Positions 4,189 through 54,172 of a DNA stretch of 64,000 nt are shown here, piece by piece. Both the position numbers and the translations under genes were made by a program. Position 1 is the first letter of the stretch; the number at the start of each line of letters is the position of its first letter. The DNA comes from Prosthecomicrobium sp. N25 (GTDB lineage: Bacteria; Pseudomonadota; Alphaproteobacteria; Rhizobiales; Ancalomicrobiaceae): contig NZ_JBBCAT010000003.1 in NCBI RefSeq assembly GCF_037203705.1, positions 1-64,000 of the forward strand. Reading direction: 5' to 3'. The notes under the pieces were generated by a model. That model did no database searches, had not been told where the DNA came from, and worked only from the letters and a program-made list of their open reading frames with translations.

Positions 4189-5361
4189 ATGAGCAAGACG
4201 TTGGATCCCCGGAACGACACGGCCGCCACGCTGGCCGCCGCCCGCTCCTTCACCCGCCGCACGATCCTGAAGGCGACCGCCGCGGCCGGCGCCGTCGCCG
4301 CCACCGGCCCCTGGTACGTGAAGGACGCGCTCTCGTCCTCGGGCAGCCTCAACCTCCTGCACTGGGACGACGAGCTGCCCAACCCGGTCATCCCCGAGTT
4401 CGAGAAGAAGACCGGAATCAAGATCAACTCCACGCCCTTCTCCCAGAACGAGGAGCAGATCAACAAGCTGCAGGCCACCGGCGGCGAGGGCTTCGACCTC
4501 TGCCAGCCGACGCGCGACCGCGCCCCCCAGTTCAAGGACCTCGCCCTGCTCCAGCCCTTCGATACCAAGAAGCTGAAGCTCGACGTCCTGCTGCCCGCCA
4601 TGCTGGAGGGATCGACGAGCGTCTGGACCTGGGACGGCAAGCTCTACCACCTGCCGCACTGCTGGGGGTCGGAGGCGATCTCCTGGCGGACGGACCTGAC
4701 CAAGCTCGACTATAAGACGCTCTCCTACGGCACGCTGTGGAACGAGGAGTACAAGGGCAAGGTGCAGGGCCGGCCCCACTCGCTCCTGCTCGGCATCGGC
4801 CTCTGGCTCGACGCCACCGGCAAGCTGCCGTCCAACCGCATGATGGACGCCTTCAAGGACGAGGCGACCATGAAGAAGATCTACGACGAGATCCTCAAGG
4901 TCGCGATCACCAAGAAGCCCTGGATCAAGCAGTTCTGGGACTCCGCCGACAACACGAAGTCGGGCCTGATGGAGAACGGCGTCGTCATCGGCCAGACCTG
5001 GGACGGCCCGCCGCTGTCGCTGAAGAAGCAGGGCAAGCCGGTCTCCTACATGGCCCCGCAGGAGGGCGCGATCGCCTGGCTCGACGGCTGGTCCATGCCG
5101 ACCGGCGCCAAGAACATCGAGCAGGCCTACGAGTGGCTGAACTACGTGCACACCCCGGAGGTCTCCGCCAAGGTCGCCGACGGGTCGGGCTACAACCCGA
5201 TCGCCAAGGGCGCCGACGCGCTCCTCTCCGACGTCGCCAAGAAGAATTTCCAGGAGGCCTTCCCGGACGACGCCACGTCGAAGCTGTGGCACCGCCCGCC
5301 GGAGCCGTCCTGGTTCGCGGAACTCCGCACCCAGTACGCGGAGAAGTTCAAGGCGGCCTGA
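4189..5361 (+). CDS. ABC transporter periplasmic binding protein, PotD/PotF-like
   Basis: Solute-binding protein of 390 residues from the spermidine/putrescine-type family. The N-terminus carries a twin-arginine-like export signal (TRRTILKATAAAGAVAA, about residues 24-40). LNLLHWDDELP near residue 55 and the late EWLNYVHTPEVSAKVAD segment (helper region before the C-terminus) match PotD-type proteins. The ATG at 4189, behind AGAGGGAACGAGAG, is preferred over an in-frame start 30 bases upstream. It is the first gene of a binding protein - ATPase - permease - permease - aminotransferase cluster; the ligand is probably a polyamine, related amine or aminophosphonate (inference). Confidence 0.88.
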   Translation: MSKTLDPRNDTAATLAAARSFTRRTILKATAAAGAVAATGPWYVKDALSSSGSLNLLHWDDELPNPVIPEFEKKTGIKINSTPFSQNEEQINKLQATGGEGFDLCQPTRDRAPQFKDLALLQPFDTKKLKLDVLLPAMLEGSTSVWTWDGKLYHLPHCWGSEAISWRTDLTKLDYKTLSYGTLWNEEYKGKVQGRPHSLLLGIGLWLDATGKLPSNRMMDAFKDEATMKKIYDEILKVAITKKPWIKQFWDSADNTKSGLMENGVVIGQTWDGPPLSLKKQGKPVSYMAPQEGAIAWLDGWSMPTGAKNIEQAYEWLNYVHTPEVSAKVADGSGYNPIAKGADALLSDVAKKNFQEAFPDDATSKLWHRPPEPSWFAELRTQYAEKFKAA

Positions 5362-40826: not shown

Positions 40827-40902
40827 GGGCCCGTAGCTCAACGGTTAGAGCTGGCCGCTCATAACGGTCTGGTTGCAGGTTCGAGTCCTGCCGGGCCCAC
40901 CA
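40827..40902 (+). tRNA. tRNA-Ile2 (anticodon CAU, lysidine type)
   Basis: A 76-base cloverleaf: acceptor GGGCCCG/CGGGCCC (7 bp), D arm GCTC/GAGC, anticodon stem GGCCG/CGGTC with loop CTCATAA (anticodon CAU), T arm GCAGG/CCTGC with TTCGAGT, and an encoded CCA end. The acceptor and overall sequence match tRNA-Ile whose CAU is modified to lysidine and reads AUA, not methionine tRNAs. Its 3' end adjoins IS remnants and accessory genes, as is usual for island integration sites. Confidence 0.93.
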
Positions 40903-41059: not shown

Positions 41060-41690
41060 TTTCCTGATCTGTGGGTCGCGTCCCAAGCAACTGTTCAGGT
41101 CAGCCAAGAAGAGGAATGGACCCTTGCTCCCGCACGGGCTCCAGACCCTCGGGGGAAGGGCTCCATCCCGCACTCTCAGCTTCTCACCGTTCAAACAGAC
41201 ACGGGCGAGCTGGTCGTAGAGGAAGTTCATGACCCAGACGTCGTTGGGACGGCATGCCGGCTTTCGGTCGTCCCGAAGCTTTGCCCTGACCCGCCGCTAC
41301 GGCACCTTGTACCGGAGCTGAGGTTCCAACTCCCTGCAAAGCAGGTACGTTCTCTTGTGTTTCACCTGCCATCCCTCGCGCTGGAGCAGCACCTGGACGC
41401 CTGTAGCCGTACCGGACGCGCGTCGCACAGATCTCCCGGATGCGAGCCTTCGGACCGGCCCGACGCGAGCGGTAGTGGAAGGTAGACCTGTCGAGGGCGA
41501 GGATCCGGCAGGCTCGCTGGATCGACACGCCCCATACACCCCCGCACCGTGTCGACGAGCTTGCGCTTGCGACCAGGCCTCGGATTTTTCGGCGAACGAA
41601 TCCTGCACCATTCCTTGTCGAGGGAGAGGTCGGCAACCAGCCTCTCCAGCTTGGCGTTCAAGACGAGCCCGTCAGTTGAACCCATCCTGG
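41060..41690 (-). mobile_element. Decayed IS3-family insertion sequence
   Basis: Minus-strand fragments of an IS3/IS407-type transposase in several frames: the OrfA end LNAKLERLVADLSLDKE near 41660, OrfB start pieces near 41450-41580, and the catalytic-domain start RPNDVWVMNFLYDQLARV near 41230. In active elements the latter has MDF, whose Asp is a DDE catalytic residue; here it is Asn. Multiple frameshifts and no visible ends show an inactive relic. It fills the gap between the tRNA and the LysR gene and overlaps the LysR stop region. Confidence 0.75.
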
Positions 41691-42712: not shown

Positions 42713-44206
42713 ATGACCACGACCCATGCCGACCCCGTTCCAGACATCGCCGAGAGCCAAGGCACGGCCGCCGCGTCCTTGCAGTTCGGGGGGCTCGCCT
42801 TGTCTGTCCTGCTGGCCTCGATCGGCACCAGTTCGGCGAATGTCGCGCTGCCGACACTGAGCGCGGCGTTCGCGGTGCCTTTCGCGGCCGTGCAATGGGT
42901 GGTGCTCGCCTATCTCCTGGCGATCGTCGTCCTGATCGTCATTGCGGGCGCGCTCAGTGATGGCTTCGGGCGGCGGCGAGTCCTGATGGCGGGTCTGATC
43001 CTGTTCGCGGTCGGATCGGCGATCTCGGGGGCGGCGCCGTCCTTCGCGCTCCTCGTCGGCGCCCGGGCGATCCAGGGTGCCGGGGCCGCCGCGATGCTGG
43101 CGCTGGCCCTCGCCTTCGTCAGCGAGGTAGTTCCGAAGGAGCGGATAGGACGCGTTATGGGAACCATGGGGGCGATCTCGGCCGCCGGCACGGCGTTCGG
43201 TCCGGCGCTCGGAGGATGGCTGATCGCCAGCGTGGGCTGGCCAGCCGTCTTCCTGGTCAACGTTCCGATCGCTTTCGCGGCCCTCGGCCTCGTGGCCCGG
43301 ACCCTGCCGCGGGACGCCGCCGCTGTGGCGGGGACACAGACGCGGTTCGATGCGGCGGGCGCCGTGACGCTGGGCCTGACCCTCGCCGCCTTCTGCTTCG
43401 CGACGACCGCCACGGCGCAGGCCGCCATCCCTCTGCTTGTCATCTGCGCGGCCGGTCTGGCGCTGCTGCTCAGGATCGAATCCCGTGCCGTCGTGCCGGT
43501 CATTCCGCTCGCGCTCCTGCGCGATCCGGTCCTGGCGCAGGGCCTGGCCCTCAATGCGCTGGTCTCCATGGTCATGATGGCGACCCTGGTGGTCGGACCC
43601 TTCCACCTCTCGCGCGCACTCGGCCTCGACCCGCCGCTGACCGGCATGGCCATGTCGGCCGGGCCGATCGTCTCGGCCTTGGCGGGTCGGCCGGCGGGGT
43701 GGTTGACGGACCGCTTCGGCCCGCCCGCGATGACCATCGGGGGTCTCGCCGCCATGACCCTGGGCGCGGCCCTCCTGGCCGCGTCGCCGGTGGCCTCGGG
43801 ACTGGCCGGCTACCTCGTCCCTCTCGTGGTGCTCACCGCCGGCTATGCCCTGCTACAGGCGTCCAACAACACGGCCATCATGGGCAGCGCCCAAGCGGAC
43901 CGGCGCGGGTCGGTCTCGGGCCTGCTCAATCTGACGCGATATATCGGCCTCCTGGCCGGCGCCTCCGGAGCGGCCGCTTTCTTCGCCATGGCCTCGGGGC
44001 TTGCACAGGATCCGTCTGCCGGCGCCGCTGCGGTCGCGTACGGCACGAGCCTGACCTTCGGCGCCGCCGCAGTGGCCACCGGCACCGCCGTGCTGGTCGC
44101 CGCTGCGCGGTGGGCGGGTTCTCCGCAGCACCGAAAAGCTGGACTACGAATGCTGCATAGACCGGATAAGGCGCTTCCACTTGCCGCGCGAAGCAAGTCA
44201 GGCTGA
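42713..44206 (+). CDS. MFS drug/metabolite exporter
   Basis: Major-facilitator protein of 497 residues with 14 predicted helices (DHA2-like). Loop 2-3 motif A is GALSDGFGRRRVLMAG, motif C-like GTAFGPALGGWLIASVGW is present in helix 5, and PAGWLTDRFGPP repeats motif A in the second half. These proteins use proton antiport to expel drugs or metabolites. The ATG at 42713 follows GAGGCGCAATC. The stop is 98 bases from the convergent lasso B gene; it could export a compound but the lasso cluster has its own ABC exporter. Confidence 0.9.
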   Translation: MTTTHADPVPDIAESQGTAAASLQFGGLALSVLLASIGTSSANVALPTLSAAFAVPFAAVQWVVLAYLLAIVVLIVIAGALSDGFGRRRVLMAGLILFAVGSAISGAAPSFALLVGARAIQGAGAAAMLALALAFVSEVVPKERIGRVMGTMGAISAAGTAFGPALGGWLIASVGWPAVFLVNVPIAFAALGLVARTLPRDAAAVAGTQTRFDAAGAVTLGLTLAAFCFATTATAQAAIPLLVICAAGLALLLRIESRAVVPVIPLALLRDPVLAQGLALNALVSMVMMATLVVGPFHLSRALGLDPPLTGMAMSAGPIVSALAGRPAGWLTDRFGPPAMTIGGLAAMTLGAALLAASPVASGLAGYLVPLVVLTAGYALLQASNNTAIMGSAQADRRGSVSGLLNLTRYIGLLAGASGAAAFFAMASGLAQDPSAGAAAVAYGTSLTFGAAAVATGTAVLVAAARWAGSPQHRKAGLRMLHRPDKALPLAARSKSG

Positions 44207-44304
44207 ATCCGGGTGGCTGGAGAGTTGCAGAGCTGCACTGCCGTTAAAGAGTGACGGTAATGCCTTGAGCGGCCGAACGTTTCTTTCAGCGTTCAGCCGC
44301 TTGC

Positions 44305-45048
44305 CTACCAGTCAGAGCTGGCCACGATCGTGTAACCCGCAGCTCGCGCGCCAAGGTCTGCGCAGATCCGGTCGCCGACTCGGCACCAGCAGTGCCCTGC
44401 CAGCGGGTAGAATTCGATTCCGACCACCAACTCGGCCGGAAGGCCGCGGGCCGCGAGGAGTCGCCAGGCCGCCAGGGCGATCTCTTTGCAGGCTGCGCCG
44501 GGCAGGCGGGCCGCCGCGGCAATCACCTCGCGGTCGATCGCCGCGACCGTCGCCAGGTCTGGCGACCGCGTCGGGGCGCCGCCGGTGCCGGGCCGGAACG
44601 CCGAAGCCGCCGCGCCGAAGCCGAAGATCCTGACAGCGAGCCGGGCGAGAATCAGCAGACCTGTCGCGGATGGACCGCAAATGTCTTGGGCTGCGAGGAA
44701 CGGTGCCAGGGCGACACGCGCCAAGATTCTGCGCATCCGGCGGCGAATCCGTCCCGAGCCGGTTTCGACCAGGCCGCGCCGCGCCAGATCGGCGCGGAAA
44801 GCGGCGAGATCGGCCGAGACCACGTCGAGGGGCACGCCGTAGTCGACAGCCACCGCGGCGGCCGCGTCCGCGGACGGTCCCGCTAGCATGCCGCGCAGCA
44901 TGTCGGCGGCGACGGCCGTCAAACCGTAGAATGCGCCGTCCAGGTCCACCAGTCGCGCACCACCGTCGGGCGCGGCGACCAGATGGACGCCGAGGGCGAG
45001 CCGGCAGTCAGGAAGGCCGCCGTGGCCCTGTGCTGCCGCGCCGTTCAT
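44305..45048 (-). CDS. Lasso peptide B protein: RRE fused to leader peptidase
   Basis: Protein of 247 residues that binds and removes the precursor leader. The N-terminal PqqD-like recognition element spans about residues 12-95; the C-terminal transglutaminase-like protease spans about 150-247. Catalytic residues are Cys187 (GAACKEIALAAW), His219 (GHCWCRV) and Asp231 (RICAD), spaced 32 and 12 residues apart, the same spacing as the Cys-His-Asp triad of McjB. Proteobacterial lasso clusters use this fused form, unlike actinobacterial split B1/B2. The ATG overlaps the cyclase stop (ATGA). Last gene of the cluster. Confidence 0.9.
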   Translation of the reverse strand: MNGAAAQGHGGLPDCRLALGVHLVAAPDGGARLVDLDGAFYGLTAVAADMLRGMLAGPSADAAAAVAVDYGVPLDVVSADLAAFRADLARRGLVETGSGRIRRRMRRILARVALAPFLAAQDICGPSATGLLILARLAVRIFGFGAAASAFRPGTGGAPTRSPDLATVAAIDREVIAAAARLPGAACKEIALAAWRLLAARGLPAELVVGIEFYPLAGHCWCRVGDRICADLGARAAGYTIVASSDW

Positions 45049-46877
45049 GCCTGTGTCGCCTCCATGTCCGGCACGGCATCGCTCAGGCATGGGACGGAAA
45101 GCGGAGGCGCGGCAGCGGAGACATGGCGCTCGAGCCAGATGAGAAGTGCCAGCATGAGGTCGATCCCCAGCGACTCTCCAGGATCCGTCAGCGCGCCCAT
45201 GGCGGCCCGCCGGAGACTCCCGGCCAATCGCCCGCCATCGACGATGCCGAGATCCCGCTCCGCGGCACGGGCCAGCCGCTCGAGCTTCGGCAGGTTGCGG
45301 GCGAGGCCTCGGAAGTAGACCTCGTTGAAGTTCCGCTTGTCGGTTCGCTGCCGGATGATCTGCGGCACGCGGTCCGCCATCGCGTCGGCTAGGATCGGCT
45401 TCGACCGTTTGGGAACGGCGCGGGGCCTGAGGCGCAGGCCGAGTGCGAATCCGACCAAACGCGGATCCAGGAGGGGGTTCGCGACCAGGATGCCCTGTTC
45501 GGCGGCGAGACCGCGGCGCGGATCGCCGGCCAGCGCCGCGATCGAGGCGGCTGCAACCGAGAGGGCCGTGGGACCCGTGCCGCAGAAGAGCCGGGCCTCG
45601 GCTTGCCGGAACAGATCGGCAAGCCCTGCCTCCCGCGCGAAGTCCGGCGCGATCCAGGCCGGCACGGCCGCCGGACGGCCGAGAGCGAGCCACCGGCCTG
45701 CCGGGCCCCGCGCCGCCAGGGGTCGTAGGCCGAAGCGCCGCAGCACCGTGAAGGGATCCGCCCCGAACACCTGCCCCCAGGCAACACATTCGTGCCACGC
45801 GGACACGAAACGTCCAGCTCGGACGAGGTCTGCGACGTCGTATGGCGGGATGTCGAAGAGATCGTCGCCGCCGATCCCGGTCAGGATGGTGTCGGCCCCC
45901 GCTGTCCTTGCGGCGCCGAGAAGGGACAGATCCTGCGCCCCCGCCAGGACCGCGCCATGGGGCTCGTCCGTCGCCGCCTCGGCGTCGTCGTAGGCCAGCA
46001 GGTCGTCGGCCAGGATGAGATGCGGACGCAGCGATGGCGCGGCCGCGTAGGCGGTCTCGACAAAGGCCGCCTCGCCCGCGAGCGATCCGATCGCGCGGTA
46101 GATCAGCGAGAGGCCATAAAGCGGGGCAGCGCGCCCGGCCAGCGCCGCGGCGGTCAGCGCCACGGTCGAGGAATCCAGGCCGCCCGACACGTGGACCGCC
46201 GTCCGATCGCCGAGGCGCTCGCGAACGGCCGCGTCGATCAGCATGCGGGCATGCGCCGCGAGCTCGGCAGGCGTGGCGTCACCGGGATCGAGCGCCCGCT
46301 CCGCCCAGTTCCACGCCGCCCCGACGACCACCGGACCGTCCGGAAGGTCGACCGAAAGCAGCCGACCCGGACCGAGGCGATTCACCCCCTGCAGGATGGC
46401 GCGGTCGGTCACCCCGTCGGGCGAGGCCAGGAGCGGGGCGGCCAGCCATGCAGAAAGAAAACCGCGGTCAAGTGCCGACGTGCCAGGCGGGACCAATGTG
46501 TCGGCGGCCATGGAAGCCTCGAACTGCCCGTCCGACGCCCGCCAGTATAGGGGAAAAGCCCCCAACGGGTCGCGCAGGGCGTGTATCCGCCGCGCGCGCA
46601 GATCGTGGACGATCAGGCAGAAGTCGCCTTCGAGCCCGACCAGACCGTCGGCACCGCGGCGCTCGAAAAGATCGAGGCACCGCGCGGCATCGCCATCCGG
46701 CGTGGCGGGACCCGCGCCGCCGCCGGGCAGGTCGTGGCGGTAATGAAGCCGGCCGAATAAGGCCACCGCAGTCCGGCCGGACCGCGCGGTACCCGCCAAC
46801 CGCCCCGCCTCCACAGCGCCGAGACGCCGGAAGACGACGCGCGACGCCTCCGCCCATACCGCGAAACCGCACCGCAT
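45045..46877 (-). CDS. Lasso peptide C protein: asparagine-synthetase-like macrolactam cyclase
   Basis: Protein of 610 residues of the AsnB/McjC family that activates an Asp or Glu side chain with ATP and joins it to the freed N-terminal amine of the core. The N-terminal glutaminase-like domain is degenerate: the protein begins MRCGFAVW, with Arg where amidotransferases need Cys2. The synthetase domain has the PP-loop VSGGLDSSTVAL (about residues 228-239), GIGGDDLFDIPPYD and a late VANPLLDPRLVGFAL plus KPILADAMADRVP. It sits between the precursor and B genes, with a 4-base overlap to B. Confidence 0.9.
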   Translation of the reverse strand: MRCGFAVWAEASRVVFRRLGAVEAGRLAGTARSGRTAVALFGRLHYRHDLPGGGAGPATPDGDAARCLDLFERRGADGLVGLEGDFCLIVHDLRARRIHALRDPLGAFPLYWRASDGQFEASMAADTLVPPGTSALDRGFLSAWLAAPLLASPDGVTDRAILQGVNRLGPGRLLSVDLPDGPVVVGAAWNWAERALDPGDATPAELAAHARMLIDAAVRERLGDRTAVHVSGGLDSSTVALTAAALAGRAAPLYGLSLIYRAIGSLAGEAAFVETAYAAAPSLRPHLILADDLLAYDDAEAATDEPHGAVLAGAQDLSLLGAARTAGADTILTGIGGDDLFDIPPYDVADLVRAGRFVSAWHECVAWGQVFGADPFTVLRRFGLRPLAARGPAGRWLALGRPAAVPAWIAPDFAREAGLADLFRQAEARLFCGTGPTALSVAAASIAALAGDPRRGLAAEQGILVANPLLDPRLVGFALGLRLRPRAVPKRSKPILADAMADRVPQIIRQRTDKRNFNEVYFRGLARNLPKLERLARAAERDLGIVDGGRLAGSLRRAAMGALTDPGESLGIDLMLALLIWLERHVSAAAPPLSVPCLSDAVPDMEATQA

Positions 46878-46973
46878 GGTCGATCTCCTCGGCGCCGGGC
46901 CCCCGCCCCCGCAGCCCGGCGCTGACGAGAGCCTCGAGTATCTTAGGAACCCGAGCACCTCGCCAGCATGGCG

Positions 46974-47153
46974 TCAGCAGTTCGGCCGCGTCAGGGTTTT
47001 CCCGTTGCCGATGCAGTCCCAGTAAGTCTCAAGCATGGGGCCGCGAATAAGCTCGCGTGTTTCCCCGGCCTCAACCATCGCAGGAGCTTCGTATGACTTA
47101 TCGGTCTCGGCCGCAGAGTGTTGATGAGCCGACCGTTCTTTCGTGACACGCAT
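46974..47153 (-). CDS. Lasso peptide precursor (A)
   Basis: ORF of 59 codons. Leader residues 1-37 carry Tyr21, Pro24, Met26 and Gly30 (SYEAPAMVEAG), i.e. positions -17, -14, -12 and -8, the determinants read by lasso recognition elements. The core (38-59, 22 residues) starts Gly38 in GPMLETYWD; Asp46 is core position 9, right for a nine-residue ring. The tail has Cys47 and ends KTLTRPNC, Cys59 being last. The usual Thr at -2 is Ile36. AAAAGGGA lies seven bases before the ATG. Overlapping longer frames on this strand lack these features. Placed just upstream of the cyclase gene. Confidence 0.85.
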   Translation of the reverse strand: MRVTKERSAHQHSAAETDKSYEAPAMVEAGETRELIRGPMLETYWDCIGNGKTLTRPNC

Positions 47154-47225
47154 GTGAACATCCCTTTTCCAGGTTGAAACAAATATTCAATTTAGTTAAT
47201 GTATTCGCGAGGGCCATGAGTTAGA
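47154..47225 (-). promoter_or_regulatory. AT-rich leader and likely promoter of the lasso precursor
   Basis: The 72 bases between the exporter stop and the precursor start are strikingly AT-rich for this genome (TACATTAACTAAATTGAATA on the minus strand). This, plus the strong ribosome-binding site, suggests a separate promoter that gives high precursor mRNA relative to the enzyme genes. Exact hexamers are not certain. Confidence 0.45.
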
Positions 47226-48965
47226 TCAAATGAATGCATCCGGACGAGCGCGGATCCCGCCAGCTTCGGTATCGCGAGGTCCGCTGCCGTCGCCACGTCG
47301 CTGACGAACCGGTCGCGTTCGGGCGTCCGGAGCGCCGTCCGCCACGATCCGGCCGGCCTCCAGTTCCACGACACGGTCGGCCACGTCGAAGTAGCGGTCG
47401 TCGTGCGAGACGACGATTAACGTCTTGCCATTCCGCTTCAATTCAGGCAGCAGGTCCCGATAGAACACCTCCCGGAAGGCGGGATCCTGGTCGGCGGCCC
47501 ATTCGTCGAGTAGCACGAAGGGTCGGCGGTCGAGCAGCACTTGCACGAAGGCGAGGCGTTTGCGCTGGCCTGTCGAAAGGCCTCCCGCGATGACCCGGTC
47601 GTCCCGAAGTTGGACCTTGTCGGCGATCTCCAGCCGCCTCAGGGCGCCCGCCGCTGCCTCGGCGTCGCCGTCCGCTGCGAAGATCAGGTCGTCGAACAGG
47701 AAGTAGTCGAAGAAGATCACCGAAAAGAGCTGCCTGTAGGCGTCCGCATCGCTGGCGGCTCCGACCGGCCGCCCGTCGCAAAGCAGTTCGCCCGCGCTCG
47801 GTCGGTACAGTCCCAGCAACAGCTTGAGCAGCGTCGTCTTGCCGCTGCCGTTGCGGCCGACCAGGAAGACCGTCTCGCCGCGCCGGATGCTCAGATCGAT
47901 CGGGCCGAGCACGAAGGGCACGGGCTGATTGGGCACGGACGGGAACGCGAAGGTCGCGCCGGCGAGCGCGACCGTATTTCCGGCGAACAGTCCGCCTTCG
48001 ACAGGACCGGGGACTGCAGGGGCCGGTCCGATCTCGCCGCCTAGTCCGGCGACCCGGCGCAGAGAGGCCATCGCATCCGCAACGAGAGGCACACCGCCGA
48101 CCAGCCGGTCGATCGGACCCTTCGTGTAGGTCAGGACCAGAAGGAATCCCGCTAGGGCGGCGCTGTCCACCGATAGCCAGTGCCCGACACCGAGGACCGC
48201 CCCCAACGTTGCAAAGAATGCGGTCGAGTTGCACGCCTGACCGCCGAAATAGAGCTGGAGCGTCGACGACAGCCGCCCGCGGATCCTCTCCACCGCGCCC
48301 TCCAGGCGCGCCATCGTGCGTTCCCGGCGGGCCCGGCCGATCCGGATCTCCTTGGCGCCGTCGATGATGGCCCGATAGGTGTACTGAAGTTCGTCCTGCT
48401 CGGCGCGCGCGGCCGCAAACCCTTCAATGCCGGCCCGATTGGCGGCGAGTTGCAGGCGGAAGCCGGCAAGCGCACCGAGGGCGGCCACCAGGAACAGAGG
48501 CAGTGAGAGCCAGGCCAGGTAGCCGAAGCAGCCGGCGATTACCGCCAGCGAGACGATCATTCCAGACAGATTGATCGTGAAAGCGCTGAGCACGCCGACG
48601 TCCACGTCCAGCATCGACAGGAGCCGATGCGGCTCCGCCGCCTCGATGTCCGCGAGCGGGGCCGCCGCCACGCGTCGGGCGAGGTCACGCCTCAGGGCTG
48701 CGACCACATGCTGACCGACCCGACCATTGGCCACGCCGCCGATGAACTCGCCCGCCACGCTCACGACCGCCAGTGCCGGCACGAACAGGGCCATGCGCAG
48801 GAGCGAGCCGCCATCCTGCAGCTCGCCATGCAGGAAGGCCAGCACCGCCGCGGTGGCGAGGCCGGTGATCCCGCCCGCGGCAACACCCAGGGCGGCGAGC
48901 GGCCAGAACGGCCGGAGCGTCTCCCAGGCCGCCGCGAGCACGCCGACCGGACGGACCTCCGTCAT
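47226..48965 (-). CDS. Lasso peptide D protein: ABC exporter
   Basis: Half-transporter of 579 residues with an N-terminal six-helix membrane domain (about residues 15-310) and C-terminal ATPase. Walker A is VGRNGSGKTTLLKL (about residue 370), the signature is LSTGQRKRLAFVQVLL, and Walker B is FVLLDEWAADQDP. The LSTGQRKR form and overall layout match cyclic-peptide exporters of the SyrD/PvdE group and lasso exporters. It would export the mature lasso peptide and give self-immunity. Its start overlaps the upstream small gene (ATGA); unusually it precedes the precursor gene. Confidence 0.88.
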   Translation of the reverse strand: MTEVRPVGVLAAAWETLRPFWPLAALGVAAGGITGLATAAVLAFLHGELQDGGSLLRMALFVPALAVVSVAGEFIGGVANGRVGQHVVAALRRDLARRVAAAPLADIEAAEPHRLLSMLDVDVGVLSAFTINLSGMIVSLAVIAGCFGYLAWLSLPLFLVAALGALAGFRLQLAANRAGIEGFAAARAEQDELQYTYRAIIDGAKEIRIGRARRERTMARLEGAVERIRGRLSSTLQLYFGGQACNSTAFFATLGAVLGVGHWLSVDSAALAGFLLVLTYTKGPIDRLVGGVPLVADAMASLRRVAGLGGEIGPAPAVPGPVEGGLFAGNTVALAGATFAFPSVPNQPVPFVLGPIDLSIRRGETVFLVGRNGSGKTTLLKLLLGLYRPSAGELLCDGRPVGAASDADAYRQLFSVIFFDYFLFDDLIFAADGDAEAAAGALRRLEIADKVQLRDDRVIAGGLSTGQRKRLAFVQVLLDRRPFVLLDEWAADQDPAFREVFYRDLLPELKRNGKTLIVVSHDDRYFDVADRVVELEAGRIVADGAPDARTRPVRQRRGDGSGPRDTEAGGIRARPDAFI

Positions 48966-49255
48966 GGTGTTGTCCGGGGTGCGTAACGCCGCTGGATCCG
49001 CTTGGCCAATATCGCCGTCGGCACGATGCCGACAATGATCGGAACGAGGACGATCAGGACCGCCCAGGCCGGATCCTGCGGCGCCACCCAGCTCGCGATA
49101 CCTACGCCGATCCCTGCCGCCCCGATCGCATAGACCGCGACCAGAAGTGTGATCAGACCGGCGGCCCGCCATGACCACTGGCCCTGCTGCTTGGCTTGGC
49201 GGTACGCGAGAATCGCGGCGGCCAGAACGGCCAACAGAGAAAGGAGGCTGGTCAT
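48962..49255 (-). CDS. Small three-span membrane protein upstream of lasso exporter
   Basis: Protein of 97 residues with three hydrophobic segments (about residues 2-18, 30-55 and 63-84), a Gln/Lys-rich first loop (YRQAKQQGQWSWR) and a basic tail (KRIQRRYAPRTTP). The stop overlaps the exporter start by ATGA, so the two are co-translated. No family is recognised. Position suggests a helper of the exporter or an immunity protein (inference). It is the first gene of the minus-strand cluster. Confidence 0.6.
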   Translation of the reverse strand: MTSLLSLLAVLAAAILAYRQAKQQGQWSWRAAGLITLLVAVYAIGAAGIGVGIASWVAPQDPAWAVLIVLVPIIVGIVPTAILAKRIQRRYAPRTTP

Positions 49256-49586
49256 CGTGCAGGCCTCATGGCGAGCAGGCCGCTTTCGACTGGCCGGTCA
49301 GCGCCGCCGTCTCCGGTGATCCACGGCCCGCCCGGCTATGGACGGCCAGCCAGTACCGGGGTTCGCATGCAAACTATTCCTAGCTGCCCACGGCGCTTTG
49401 ACCAATCTCAACAACGCCGACAGCGCCGGCGGATGTCCGATTCCGCACATGGATGCGAGCACTGCAGTTCAAAGCGCCGTCGTTGACGGACCTCAATGCC
49501 CAGAGGGCTACGAAGCCCGAGGCTTCACGGGCCGCTCCCTCCGGGAGCCAGGCCGGATGCAAGGTCCGCCAAGGAGGCCGCCGCCC
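49256..49586. other. Divergent intergenic region upstream of the lasso operon
   Basis: 331 bases between the divergent lasso-operon and secreted-protein genes with no supported gene. A frame continues upstream of 49587 but shows no protein-like features. It should contain the promoter for the lasso operon; a small CTCCC-TCC-GGGAG hairpin lies near 49540. Confidence 0.45.
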
Positions 49587-50461: not shown

Positions 50462-53400
50462 ATGTCGCAGTTCGGCGCCGGCCATCGGGTTTCTCGTGCG
50501 GGCCGGAGCGGAGGAGTTGCGCTCGCCTTGGCCTCGATTCTGGTCACGGCTCAGGCAGCGCAAGCCCAGAGCAACGATCTGACGCCGCTGCGTCCAGGCG
50601 AGGCCTTTCTCACCCGCTTCTCCGGTACTGCCCCCGGGCCTGACGGCAAGGCGGTGATCGACGTCAACGGGGTCGTGGGCAGCGTCCTCGATTTGAGGAA
50701 CCCGGGCTTCAGGGCACAGGGACAGCACTGGCTCGACGAGCCGCAGCGCCTGCCGGTCACCGCGGCCGACGTCGGTCAGGTCTACGGCGTCGCCCTGGAC
50801 GATCAGAACCCGCCGAACATCTATCTGACCGCCACCTCAGCGTTCGGTCTGCACCGCACCGCCGACGGACGCGGCTGGATGGCGGGCCAATGGGGACCGG
50901 CAGGGGGACCCGGTACCGTTTGGAAGCTCGAGGCGGCCCGCAACTACGCGCCCCGGTCCTTCGCCAACATCACGCTGGACGGCCGAGAGAACAGTGGCGC
51001 CTCCCTCGGAAACCTGGCCTTCGACAAGGCGCATCGCCAGTTCTTCGTCTCGGACCTGGAAACCGGGATGATCCATCGGCTCGGTATGGACGGGCGCGAT
51101 CTCGGCCGCTACGACCATGGCGTCGACGGTCGCTCCGCCCACTACGACGTGCCTGCCGCCCGCAACGCCAGTCTGCCGCCGGTCGTCTTCGACCCGCTCG
51201 GCACCGCCCGCATCAACGATTGCGGCGAGGGCCCCTTCGCCGAAACCCCGTCGTGCTGGAACGTCGCCGATCCACGCCGGCGAGTCTGGGGCATCGGGGT
51301 CAGGACTGACAAGGCCAGCCGCGAAACTCGTCTCTACTACGCCCTGTGGAGCGGCGTCGCGCTCGGCCGTGCGGTCGCCGCCGACATGGCCGAGGGCGAG
51401 AAGACGGGCACGGTCTGGTCGATCCGAATCGCACCCTCGGGCGACTTCGATCGCACGAGTATCCGCCGCGAGTTCGAGATTCCCGAGTTCTTCGTCGCCA
51501 AAGCGGACTTCGAGCGCGCCGGTCCCAGCCATCCGGTTGCCGACATCAGCTTTCCGGACTGCTACGACCAGCCGCTCATGGTTCTCTCCGAGCGGGGCGG
51601 CCTGAAGAACCTCGGCCTCGACGTCGAGGAGCCCTTCGCGACGTCGCGCGAAAGCCGCGTCCTGCGCTACGAGCAGGACATGAACGGCGACTGGAAGCCC
51701 ACCGGCCGGTACGACATCGGTCATGCCGAGCGCAAGCCGCCGCGCGAGCAGCCCTGGATCCGTGCCAACGCGTCCGGCGCAGCCGCATTCGGGCTCGGCT
51801 ACACCTCCGCCGGGACGGCGGACCCGGCCCGGCCCGACCAGACCCTCTGGATCGCGGGAGATCATCTCTGTTCGCCCGAGGGTCCCTGCTACAACCCCGC
51901 AACCGGAACCTTCGAGGACGACTCGCAGGTGCACGGGCTGCAGGGCACGCCCGAGAGCGCCTACGCGCCGCTCGCCCCGAGCGGGGCCTTCCGGGTCTAT
52001 CCGGCGCGCGGCACCGTCTCAACCGCGGACGGCCCCCAGCAGTCCTACATGGTCGACGCCGACGTGAACGTCGACGGGTCCGGCGCCCCCAATCCGGCCG
52101 ATCTCGCCCGCAACGACGCCACCATGATCGGCGACGTCGCCATTTGGCAGCCCTGCGAAGGACAGGCCGCCGGGACCGAAAGCCCGGTCGAGATCGGCAC
52201 CGCGCCGCTGCCGACCGGCCCCGTCGACCTGTGGATCCGCAAGTCGGCCGTGGAGGACTGCGACATCGACGGCTTCTGCAGCTTCGCCATCACGATCACG
52301 GCGATCGGGGAAGGGGCCTGGCGCGCGCCCATCTTCATCCGCGACATGATCCCCGACGGAGCGGAACTCGTCTCCTTCACGCCTGCCGACCCCTGGCTGT
52401 GCGAGGTGATCGACGCCCTCCTGTGCTGGCGGCCGGCTGTCGTGCTGCTGCCCGGGGAGGACCTGGTGCTGCGGATCAGGATCCGCCTGCCCGAGGTGAT
52501 CCTGATGCGCGCGCCGATCGAGCTCGACAACTGCGTCCTGATCGAGTGGCCATTCGTCGATCCCGACGACGCGCCGGCGATCGAGATCACGGTGCGCAAC
52601 ATCCTCGTGCTGATGGGGTACCTGCCCGCGCGCGGCCCCGGCGACCTCGTCTCGGCCATTCTGCGCTTCGAACGGGACATGCGCCTGGAAGGGACCGGCC
52701 GCATCGGCCCGCGCCTCGTGGACGCGCTGTTCGGCAGTCTTGCGCGCATGAACGGGGACGACGATCCACTGAATGACATCGCCTGCGCGCCCATCCGGGT
52801 CGGATTGCCGCCGATTCTGGTGGGCGGACATGGCCGGGCCAGCACCCATCGCCGCTTCGGTTCCTTCGAGCATACCCGCGCGATGACGCACCGGCGCTGG
52901 GCCTCCCCGGCCCACAATCCGTGGCAGAGCCACTTCCGCTGGGGCTCCGCCGTGCTCCCTCCGGTCGATTTGCACAGCCGTGCCCAGACGCACGCCCGTT
53001 GGGGCTCGGTCTGGCACAGCCGCGCCCGAACTCACCGTCGCGACGGCTCGTTCCCGCCCAATCACGACCGTCGCCTGTCGCACGACCGCTACGACTCGGT
53101 GCACTCGACGGCGATGTCCCACTACCGGACCAGCTCGATCCACGCGGTCGATCGCTCGCACTACCGCTACAGCTCGATCCACGGCCGTCACGAGTCGCAC
53201 GACCGGTTCGGCTCGATCCACACGCGCGCCGAGACGCACCGGCGTGACGGCTCGATCCACCACCGAGCGCTGTCGCACGCGCGCGTCGAGTCCAGCCACA
53301 ATCGCGACCGCTCCCACAACAAGGCCGGCTCGGAGCACCGGCGCAAGGATTCGCTGCTCGGCGGCGGCTTCGCCAGCCCATACCACACCCGGGCCATGTC

Positions 53401-54172
53401 GCACTTCCGCGGCGCCTCGGCCGGCCACGACACGTTCGGCGATCCCGCGCATCGCCGCAGCGATAGTCTCGGTCCGATCATCAAGGACAAGGACAAGACC
53501 GTCGTGAAACCCGAGGAGCACCATCCCGAAACGCCCCCGCCCGCCATCCCCAGCGTGATCGCCGCACCGCCTCCGGCCGGCGCACCCGTCGGGGAGGATC
53601 GGCACAACCGCCTGCTCAGCCAGGATCAGCGCGGGACCACCGGAGAGGGAATCGTCAAGGGGCACACGGTGGCGCAGAGCCGGGGCAGCACGTCGCGCCA
53701 CACGACCGCCGAGAGCCGCGGGCCGACGCCGGTCGCCGTCCATGGACGGGCGGCCAGCCGCGCCGACGTGAGGCCAGTGCACCGGACTGCGGCAAGCCGG
53801 GCGGCGAGCCATTCCCGCGAGGAGAGCCGCGGTCCCGTCGTGATCCACTCCAAGGCGGTGAGCCGCGCCCAGACCGTCGGACCCGTCCACGCCAGGAAGG
53901 CGAGCAGGGGGATCATCACGGTGACCCCGGATCACGTCGCACCGCCGGTCTCCGTCTTCGGTGGAGGCGGGCATGGCAAGAAGGCCAGCAGAGGCGGCCA
54001 TGGCGGCGGCGCGATCGGCGGACACGGCCCGAACACCATCTTCGGTGACGGCGGGCACGCCAAGAGAGCCAGCAGGGGCGGCGGATTCGGCGGCGATCAC
54101 CACGGCGGCGGCCTGGGCGGCTTCGGGGGCGGAGGCCACGAAAAGTGGCACAGGAAGGGTAGCTTCTTCTGA
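50462..54172 (+). CDS. Large secreted protein with propeller-like, DUF11-like and His/Arg/Ser repeat regions
   Basis: Protein of 1236 residues. A signal peptide (cleavage after AQA near residue 35) is followed by a beta-propeller-like region (about 36-560), a DUF11-like domain (about 586-700, with VDLWIRKSAVEDCDIDGFCS and its Cys pairs), a short peptidoglycan-binding-like helix set (MGYLPARGPGDLVSAILRFE, about 718-760), a 13-residue His/Arg/Ser repeat block (about 793-1002), and a Pro-rich link followed by Ser-Arg-Gly and Gly-His repeats to the end (KWHRKGSFF). GGGAGGGCAGACC precedes the ATG. The next gene overlaps or follows directly. Function unknown; cell-surface or matrix role is a guess. 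Confidence 0.8.
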   Translation: MSQFGAGHRVSRAGRSGGVALALASILVTAQAAQAQSNDLTPLRPGEAFLTRFSGTAPGPDGKAVIDVNGVVGSVLDLRNPGFRAQGQHWLDEPQRLPVTAADVGQVYGVALDDQNPPNIYLTATSAFGLHRTADGRGWMAGQWGPAGGPGTVWKLEAARNYAPRSFANITLDGRENSGASLGNLAFDKAHRQFFVSDLETGMIHRLGMDGRDLGRYDHGVDGRSAHYDVPAARNASLPPVVFDPLGTARINDCGEGPFAETPSCWNVADPRRRVWGIGVRTDKASRETRLYYALWSGVALGRAVAADMAEGEKTGTVWSIRIAPSGDFDRTSIRREFEIPEFFVAKADFERAGPSHPVADISFPDCYDQPLMVLSERGGLKNLGLDVEEPFATSRESRVLRYEQDMNGDWKPTGRYDIGHAERKPPREQPWIRANASGAAAFGLGYTSAGTADPARPDQTLWIAGDHLCSPEGPCYNPATGTFEDDSQVHGLQGTPESAYAPLAPSGAFRVYPARGTVSTADGPQQSYMVDADVNVDGSGAPNPADLARNDATMIGDVAIWQPCEGQAAGTESPVEIGTAPLPTGPVDLWIRKSAVEDCDIDGFCSFAITITAIGEGAWRAPIFIRDMIPDGAELVSFTPADPWLCEVIDALLCWRPAVVLLPGEDLVLRIRIRLPEVILMRAPIELDNCVLIEWPFVDPDDAPAIEITVRNILVLMGYLPARGPGDLVSAILRFERDMRLEGTGRIGPRLVDALFGSLARMNGDDDPLNDIACAPIRVGLPPILVGGHGRASTHRRFGSFEHTRAMTHRRWASPAHNPWQSHFRWGSAVLPPVDLHSRAQTHARWGSVWHSRARTHRRDGSFPPNHDRRLSHDRYDSVHSTAMSHYRTSSIHAVDRSHYRYSSIHGRHESHDRFGSIHTRAETHRRDGSIHHRALSHARVESSHNRDRSHNKAGSEHRRKDSLLGGGFASPYHTRAMSHFRGASAGHDTFGDPAHRRSDSLGPIIKDKDKTVVKPEEHHPETPPPAIPSVIAAPPPAGAPVGEDRHNRLLSQDQRGTTGEGIVKGHTVAQSRGSTSRHTTAESRGPTPVAVHGRAASRADVRPVHRTAASRAASHSREESRGPVVIHSKAVSRAQTVGPVHARKASRGIITVTPDHVAPPVSVFGGGGHGKKASRGGHGGGAIGGHGPNTIFGDGGHAKRASRGGGFGGDHHGGGLGGFGGGGHEKWHRKGSFF
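52842..53470 (+). repeat. Protein-coding His/Arg/Ser tandem repeat
   Basis: About 12 to 14 units of the pattern [S/T]-H-x-R-x-x-S-x-x-H, mostly 13 to 15 residues apart, for example SHYRTSSIHAVDR, SHYRYSSIHGRHE, SHDRFGSIHTRAE and THRRDGSIHHRAL. DNA of neighbouring units is similar but not identical, so the array is old or under selection for amino-acid pattern. His content could allow metal or pH-dependent binding (inference). Confidence 0.85.

Follow-up and report, generated by a model that had tools for sequence, protein, structure and literature searches.

Which product, if any, arises from a compact run of genes on the minus strand of a contig of Prosthecomicrobium sp. N25 (NZ_JBBCAT010000003.1), at 44305-49255 of the 64,000-nucleotide stretch analyzed here (positions 1 to 64,000 of the contig, hereafter the window), and where would that product stand among known peptides? 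The initial annotation took this locus for a lasso peptide cluster of five adjacent minus-strand genes, and all five were indeed read in frame there. A precursor (A), a leader peptidase (B) and a cyclase (C) are in principle sufficient for lasso biosynthesis, and a further protein (D) serves for export. The lasso reading was supported by family model matches of B, C and D, by the catalytic triad of B, by sequence motifs and by the loci of relatives; based on this evidence, we consider with a probability of about 90% that the locus is a lasso-type peptide biosynthetic cluster. The product is predicted to be a 22-residue lasso peptide with a threaded fold, and a pair of cysteines in its core suggests a peptide resembling class IV.

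The Biosynthetic Genes

The B gene (44305..45048, start codon at 45048) encodes a predicted fusion of a PqqD-type RiPP (ribosomally synthesized and post-translationally modified peptide) recognition element (RRE) and a transglutaminase-like leader peptidase. The protein matched the NCBIfam model lasso_biosyn_B2 (NF033537; 54.1 bits, cut-off 33) and Transglut_core3 (PF13471; 59.7 bits, cut-off 26), and its residues 34-94 matched PqqD (PF05402; 28.2 bits, cut-off 23.4). B is the one match of NF033537 in its genome and also the one match of Transglut_core3. The triad Cys187/His219/Asp231, with spacings of 32 and 12, is conserved in the B proteins of two relatives aligned with it (34% identity). 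The PqqD-protease fusion proposed beforehand was confirmed by PF05402, NF033537 and the residue check; the triad of McjB has identical spacing. A PDB sequence search with B gave one weak, chance-like match.

The D gene (47226..48965, start at 48965) encodes a cyclic peptide export ATP-binding cassette (ABC) transporter that matched TIGR01194 with 430.4 bits (cut-off 286.2), in agreement with the export role assigned to it earlier as a SyrD/PvdE-like protein. The C gene (45045..46877, start at 46877) encodes a predicted AsnB-like macrolactam synthetase, the lasso cyclase; the AsnB-like assignment was corroborated by its match to Asn_synthase (PF00733; 62.9 bits, cut-off 21), and the protein carries the motif SGGLDS. 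A search of PDB sequences with C returned five amidotransferase or asparagine synthetase chains, and in the plasmid records two places approximately 30% identical to C were detected, in Nostoc and in Streptomyces.

The reading frames of all five cluster genes are intact, and the order of the lasso genes is D-A-C-B. ATGA overlaps, read from the sequence, join C to B and the small membrane protein gene to D, and purine-rich stretches lie directly upstream of the starts of A, B and C. The 72-bp gap between D and A (47154..47225, minus strand) has a GC content of 0.38 and contains the two 40-mers of lowest GC (0.23) in a window that averages 0.68. Based on this composition the gap is the probable promoter region of A, and the overlaps together with the AT-rich stretch fit an operon in which the precursor has a separate promoter; a scan of 44150-49500 for the sigma-70 consensus gave no site.

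The Precursor and the Precursors of Its Relatives

The A gene (46974..47153, minus strand, start at 47153) encodes a 59-residue precursor with the leader ...YEAPAMVEAGETRELIR and the core GPMLETYWDCIGNGKTLTRPNC. The leader carries YEAPAM at -17 to -12, with Tyr(-17), Pro(-14) and Met(-12), the last in place of Leu, followed by Gly(-8) and by Arg(-1). This spacing, as well as Gly1 and Asp9 in the core, is exactly that reported in the initial annotation. Asp9 is the sole acidic residue at positions 7-9, so that a ring between Gly1 and Asp9 is predicted; the core cysteines, Cys10 and Cys22, both lie outside this ring. The complete pattern (YxxPx[LMIVF]xxxG, Gly1 and Asp/Glu at 7-9), which was written after the open reading frame (ORF) had been seen and is therefore post hoc, has a single occurrence in the window and was absent from all 60 order-1 Markov copies. 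The hidden Markov model matches of B and D and the homologous precursors found beside homologous cyclases are stronger evidence than this test of chance. A itself had no match among PDB chains of at least 20 residues or in plasmid records, and within these collections the earlier statement that the core is not a recognized one holds.

The B of the window was found in one of 15 genomes of the family, its own. Counting the window's own genome, the lasso B2 family (NF033537) is represented in 25 of 397 genomes of the order, and C has matches at E 1e-20 or better in three of the 385 genomes searched in the class. A profile built from three cyclases matched six of 17 genomes in the family of genome G162 at 1e-20; G162 and its congener G785 scored far above the remaining four. 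In the phylum it matched 16 genomes out of 398 at 1e-30, with the window's own genome far ahead of the rest. The closest cyclases found belong to two loci of G162 (L037 and L038; 38-39% identity) and one of G785 (L083; 36.5%). A scan of named genomes gave three loci, two from the metagenome-assembled genome (MAG) Alphaproteobacteria bacterium PL24a_bin.80 (L057 and L059), which their identical precursors mark as the G162 loci L037 and L038, and one from the MAG IP29b_bin.19 (L058), likewise the G785 locus L083. The contig carrying L058/L083 is recorded as Anaerolineae, whereas genome classification assigns G785 to the class of the window. Its precursors and cyclase nearly duplicate those of L037, and the record is perhaps mislabelled or misbinned.

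In a quick tree of 19 cyclases, C and the cyclases of L037, L038 and L083 formed one clade with a Shimodaira-Hasegawa-like approximate likelihood ratio (SH-aLRT) support of 100. The tree comprises the window and 18 of the 21 loci matched by tblastn among 35 searched; L039, with a stop inside the frame, and L095 and L096, with partial matches, were omitted. As to the neighborhood of homologous loci, on which the initial annotation had made its reading depend, all three nearest homologs of C adjoin lasso-type precursors, an outcome in favor of that reading. L037 has three precursors together with a B (33.7% identity) and a D (44.1%), B standing before C and D divergently upstream. L083 has a B, and its contig ends about 0.5 kb beyond the precursors, where D sits in L037. 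At L038 (G162:C61, 6162-8489) a precursor-cyclase pair stands without a B or D match within 17 kb; L037 of that genome has both, and the pair is possibly served in trans.

The initial annotation was silent on two traits of A that are common to these relatives, the residue at -2 and the cysteine pair. Six precursors stand beside the other cyclases of the clade (three at L037, one at L038 and two at L083), representing three distinct cores, GVGEYNSYDQCGHASWGC, GYSWMSGYDMCGHGIYECE and GHSFLSGYDWCQNGLYTC; with that of the window, the four distinct cores measure 18 to 22 residues. In all seven precursors, Gly1 and Asp9 are accompanied by an Ile or Val residue at leader position -2. Each of the seven cores has exactly two cysteines, which follow the ring and stand at positions 11 and 18 in the relatives and at 10 and 22 in the window. 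The relatives carry Trp or Tyr at core position 16; the tail of the window core after Cys10 is devoid of an aromatic plug. The loci compared contain 16 distinct ORFs that match the motif. Eight of these, all of them other proteobacterial precursors, carry Thr(-2) and lack cysteines in the core; L005, one of the eight, has Val instead of Gly at core position 1. This comparison covers ORFs of up to 110 residues matching a motif derived from the window leader, and clusters with other leaders are outside its count.

Two loci with B2 genes stand apart from these groups. In G001, of the window's family, six small ORFs with a leader-like stretch YSKPx[IV]xxGPKLxx[IV]T[AS] lie beside a B2 match (L040; G001:C256, 6642-8113); there is no Asp or Glu after this stretch and no C on the 10.9-kb contig, which stops 1.9 kb past B2, and the locus is perhaps of another RiPP type employing B2. 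On the plasmid pNsp_a of Nostoc sp. ATCC 53789, typed as conjugative, B2 and AsnB-like genes flank a pentapeptide-repeat gene (L114, 3536-7821), and an ORF at 4605-4760 that is absent from the gene table encodes a product containing YSQPKI. One motif-matching Nostoc ORF of this locus belongs to neither of the two precursor groups.

Proposed Biosynthesis and Competing Explanations

Going by what is known of lasso systems, the RRE of B, of PqqD type, would bind the YxxPxM leader, and the Cys/His/Asp peptidase of B would cleave after Arg(-1), with Ile occupying the position usually held by Thr(-2). C would then activate Asp9 and link it to Gly1 around the pre-threaded tail, which would leave nine residues in the ring and 13 in the loop and tail, and D would export the product. 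Cys10 and Cys22 would then be oxidized to a single disulfide, yielding a class IV-like peptide. We consider this last step probable, though clearly less so than the assignment of the cluster. The calculated monoisotopic masses are 2450.118 Da for the reduced lasso and 2448.102 Da for the oxidized form. For its function, an antibacterial or signaling role is the default guess.

Several observations weigh against these assignments. The leader has Ile at -2 and lacks the usual Thr, and A scored 14.0 bits against the lasso leader model NF033521, below the cut-off of 19; of three relatives' precursors among the six submitted to this model, that of L038 passed (20.2 bits) and two of L037 had no match. 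C remained under the narrower lasso cyclase models NF033561 (170.7 bits, cut-off 300) and NF033535 (88.4 bits, cut-off 525). An AlphaFold2 model of B built from three sequences was poor (predicted local distance difference test score, pLDDT, 41) and lends no support to its assignment. The cyclase tree is a quick one, and the program flagged the row of the window for odd composition. The conservation in the clade reflects two independent lineages only, the window on one side and G162 with G785, of one genus, on the other.

As regards Ile(-2), the peptidase pair BsfB1/BsfB2 accepts this residue experimentally, the first validated leader of this kind (2023), and replacement of Ile(-2) of BsfA by Thr or Ala abolishes leader removal (PMC10368454, results as excerpted). 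Ile(-2) is thus no flaw in itself, because BsfA needs it for its leader to be removed. According to the same article, precursors with Ile or Val at -2 are predicted in Acidobacteriaceae and Sphingomonadales as well.

The foremost alternative concerns the cysteines rather than the cluster type, with which it is compatible: the product could be a lasso whose cysteines stay reduced, or bound to a metal or another thiol, and which acts as an ordinary class II peptide. No thiol oxidoreductase family was matched among the five cluster proteins and ten other ORFs of the window that were scanned, three of which match nothing. The reviews, as far as their excerpts go, disagree on the matter, one stating that the interlocked form is retained without need for disulfides (PMC13352647) and the other holding that in classes I, III and IV the disulfides are essential to both topology and activity (PMC9266682). 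Against reduced cysteines stand the class IV clusters known so far, likewise without a common oxidase, for which non-enzymatic oxidation is thought conceivable (PMC9266682), and the exact pair of core cysteines in seven of seven clade precursors (four distinct cores) set against eight Thr(-2) cores without any cysteine. We therefore regard permanently free or ligated cysteines as a real but distinctly less probable outcome than the disulfide.

With the disulfide formed, the peptide is predicted to be class IV-like: the first cysteine directly follows the ring and the second stands at or near the chain end, so the ring closed by the disulfide would enclose almost the entire loop and tail. Should the tail be threaded at the time of bond formation, this ring and the macrolactam would be linked. 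It may be speculated that the window and its relatives constitute a small, natural lasso lineage of catenane-like character, with topology held by linked rings instead of bulky plugs and with no dedicated oxidase in the cluster; this extension is unlikely to hold in full. Threading itself cannot be revealed by the sequence, and a bond from position 10 or 11 to the C terminus is as easily drawn as two rings side by side, that is, as a branched-cyclic peptide with a Gly1-Asp9 ring and a second ring closed by the disulfide. The tail of the window core, without an aromatic plug after Cys10, would suit such a molecule. B, C and the leader are of the lasso kind, whose members, as far as characterized, thread, and Trp or Tyr at core position 16 of the relatives could serve as a plug, so that the unthreaded peptide appears rather improbable.

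A lasso cluster that has decayed or fallen silent, its product no longer made, is also compatible with the cluster type and would accord with the occurrence of B in only one of 15 family genomes and with the transposase-like fragments recognized by eye a few kb to the left. Such a fate is still harder to reconcile with five intact frames that retain their starts and overlaps and with a triad kept in B proteins at 34% identity, and is considered improbable. Finally, the locus could belong to a different RiPP type into which a B2-like peptidase and an AsnB-like enzyme have been recruited. This is very improbable, despite the scores of C under the lasso cyclase cut-offs and the six YSKP-leader ORFs beside B2 in G001 (no lasso-type core and no C found, on a contig ending 1.9 kb past B2), since C is present here and Gly1 and Asp9 stand at lasso spacing, conserved in relatives.

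Accessory Genes and Genomic Setting

The fifth gene of the cluster (48962..49255, minus strand, start codon at 49255) encodes a 97-residue small membrane protein with no family above cut-off in the Pfam and NCBIfam scans and none in PHROGs. It was matched in 13 of 297 genomes of the order, own included, the single strong match in another genome being that of G005 (40% identity, E 3e-11), which has no B2 match. The earlier claim that the parts of this locus are necessary and enough was too loose, because in principle A, B and C are sufficient, D is for export and the membrane protein has its best homolog in G005, a genome without a B2 match. A role of the membrane protein as an immunity factor is conceivable. 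No match to the lasso isopeptidase model NF033523 exceeded its cut-off of 400 in the genome, the best of three reaching 31.5 bits.

The surroundings of the cluster are not shared in place with two genomes of the same genus (G012 and G013). To the left lie a tRNA-Met gene (40827-40902), IS3-like transposase fragments at about 41200-41660 (recognized by eye), a LysR gene and a major facilitator superfamily (MFS) gene, and the LysR/MFS region has DNA matches elsewhere in both genomes. On the right side, similarity to the DNA of G012 and G013 sets in at about 50580, and in the 6.3 kb upstream of this point neither genome has a DNA match to the lasso region. The tRNA and right-flank matches are more than 2 Mb apart in G012, which makes rearrangement as possible as insertion. 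The tRNA-Met stretch has one full copy in the genome and two further matches of 75%; integration at this gene is not claimed, no flanking repeat being evident. The GC content of the cluster is 0.69 against 0.68 for the window, and third-position GC is 0.65-0.82 in its genes against 0.84-0.98 in many other ORFs of the window, some of which are equally low. A recent arrival of the cluster is plausible.

Beyond the cluster, an ORF of 1236 amino acids (50462-54172) has a signal-like start, judged by eye, imperfect repeats of the type SHxRxxSxH and no Pfam match. It contains 39-bp tandem units at 53120-53265, and its portion 50582-53497 is approximately 75% identical in two genomes of the same genus.

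Comparison With Known Systems

The cluster type is known, as are Ile/Val(-2) leaders and class IV peptides, each on its own; it is the small branch uniting them that looks new. In the literature searched, in part as excerpts, neither this cluster nor the combination of Ile/Val(-2) with a core cysteine pair was found, and the same holds for the fuller set of Ile(-2), Cys10/Cys22, the order D-A-C-B and a separate cyclase clade; predicted Ile/Val/Ala(-2) precursors are contained in a 2023 survey cited by PMC10368454, so that a prior listing is possible. Lasso clusters are not rare in the order, but reports of class IV are few, three cases (LP2006, pandonodin and felipeptins) being given in a 2022 review (PMC9266682, as excerpted). 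A lineage that pairs Ile/Val(-2) with cysteines bracketing the loop and tail offers a handle on how B selects the residue at -2, and likewise on whether and when a disulfide locks a lasso topologically.

According to the excerpted sources, class IV peptides (LP2006, felipeptins and pandonodin) resemble the window in having a lasso gene set without a common oxidase, and carry one disulfide within the post-ring part (PMC9266682, PMC7549694); in the window the two cysteines, both outside the ring, are what is seen. In the clade of the window the first cysteine follows the ring immediately (position 10 or 11) and the second lies at or beside the C terminus, so that a bond would span almost all of the loop and tail. 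In this the clade differs from pandonodin, whose Cys16 is described as the lower steric lock (PMC13003496, in excerpt).

The BsfA/BsfB1/BsfB2 system of Bradymonas sediminis shares with the window a YxxPxL-type leader at -17 to -12 and Ile(-2); it differs in that BsfA is phosphorylated by BsfK, B is split into B1 and B2 and the ring is closed at Asp8, whereas the window has a fused B and Asp9 (PMC10368454, as excerpted). The same five cluster proteins and ten window ORFs gave no match to a kinase family, but three of the ten ORFs match nothing at all, and Pfam may miss a kinase of the BsfK type. The clusters of PL24a_bin.80 and IP29b_bin.19 share with the window the cyclase clade, Ile/Val(-2), Asp9 and two post-ring cysteines, and differ in the positions of the latter (11/18 instead of 10/22) and in having up to three precursors per cluster. 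Seven proteobacterial loci (L010, L015, L017, L019, L020, L033 and L075), regarded as class II because they lack cysteines, agree with the window in the YxxP leader, Gly1 and Asp9, and depart from it in Thr(-2) and the lack of core cysteines; the cyclases of six of the seven are in the tree, outside the clade of the window.

The closest parallel for linked rings is found in engineered catenanes of microcin J25, in which cysteines were added to a lasso in order to close linked rings (Allen and Link 2016, as related in PMC8498205, in its excerpted part). Those catenanes are man-made, were obtained after trypsin treatment and comprise several molecules, whereas the cysteine pair of the window is native and lies in a single chain.

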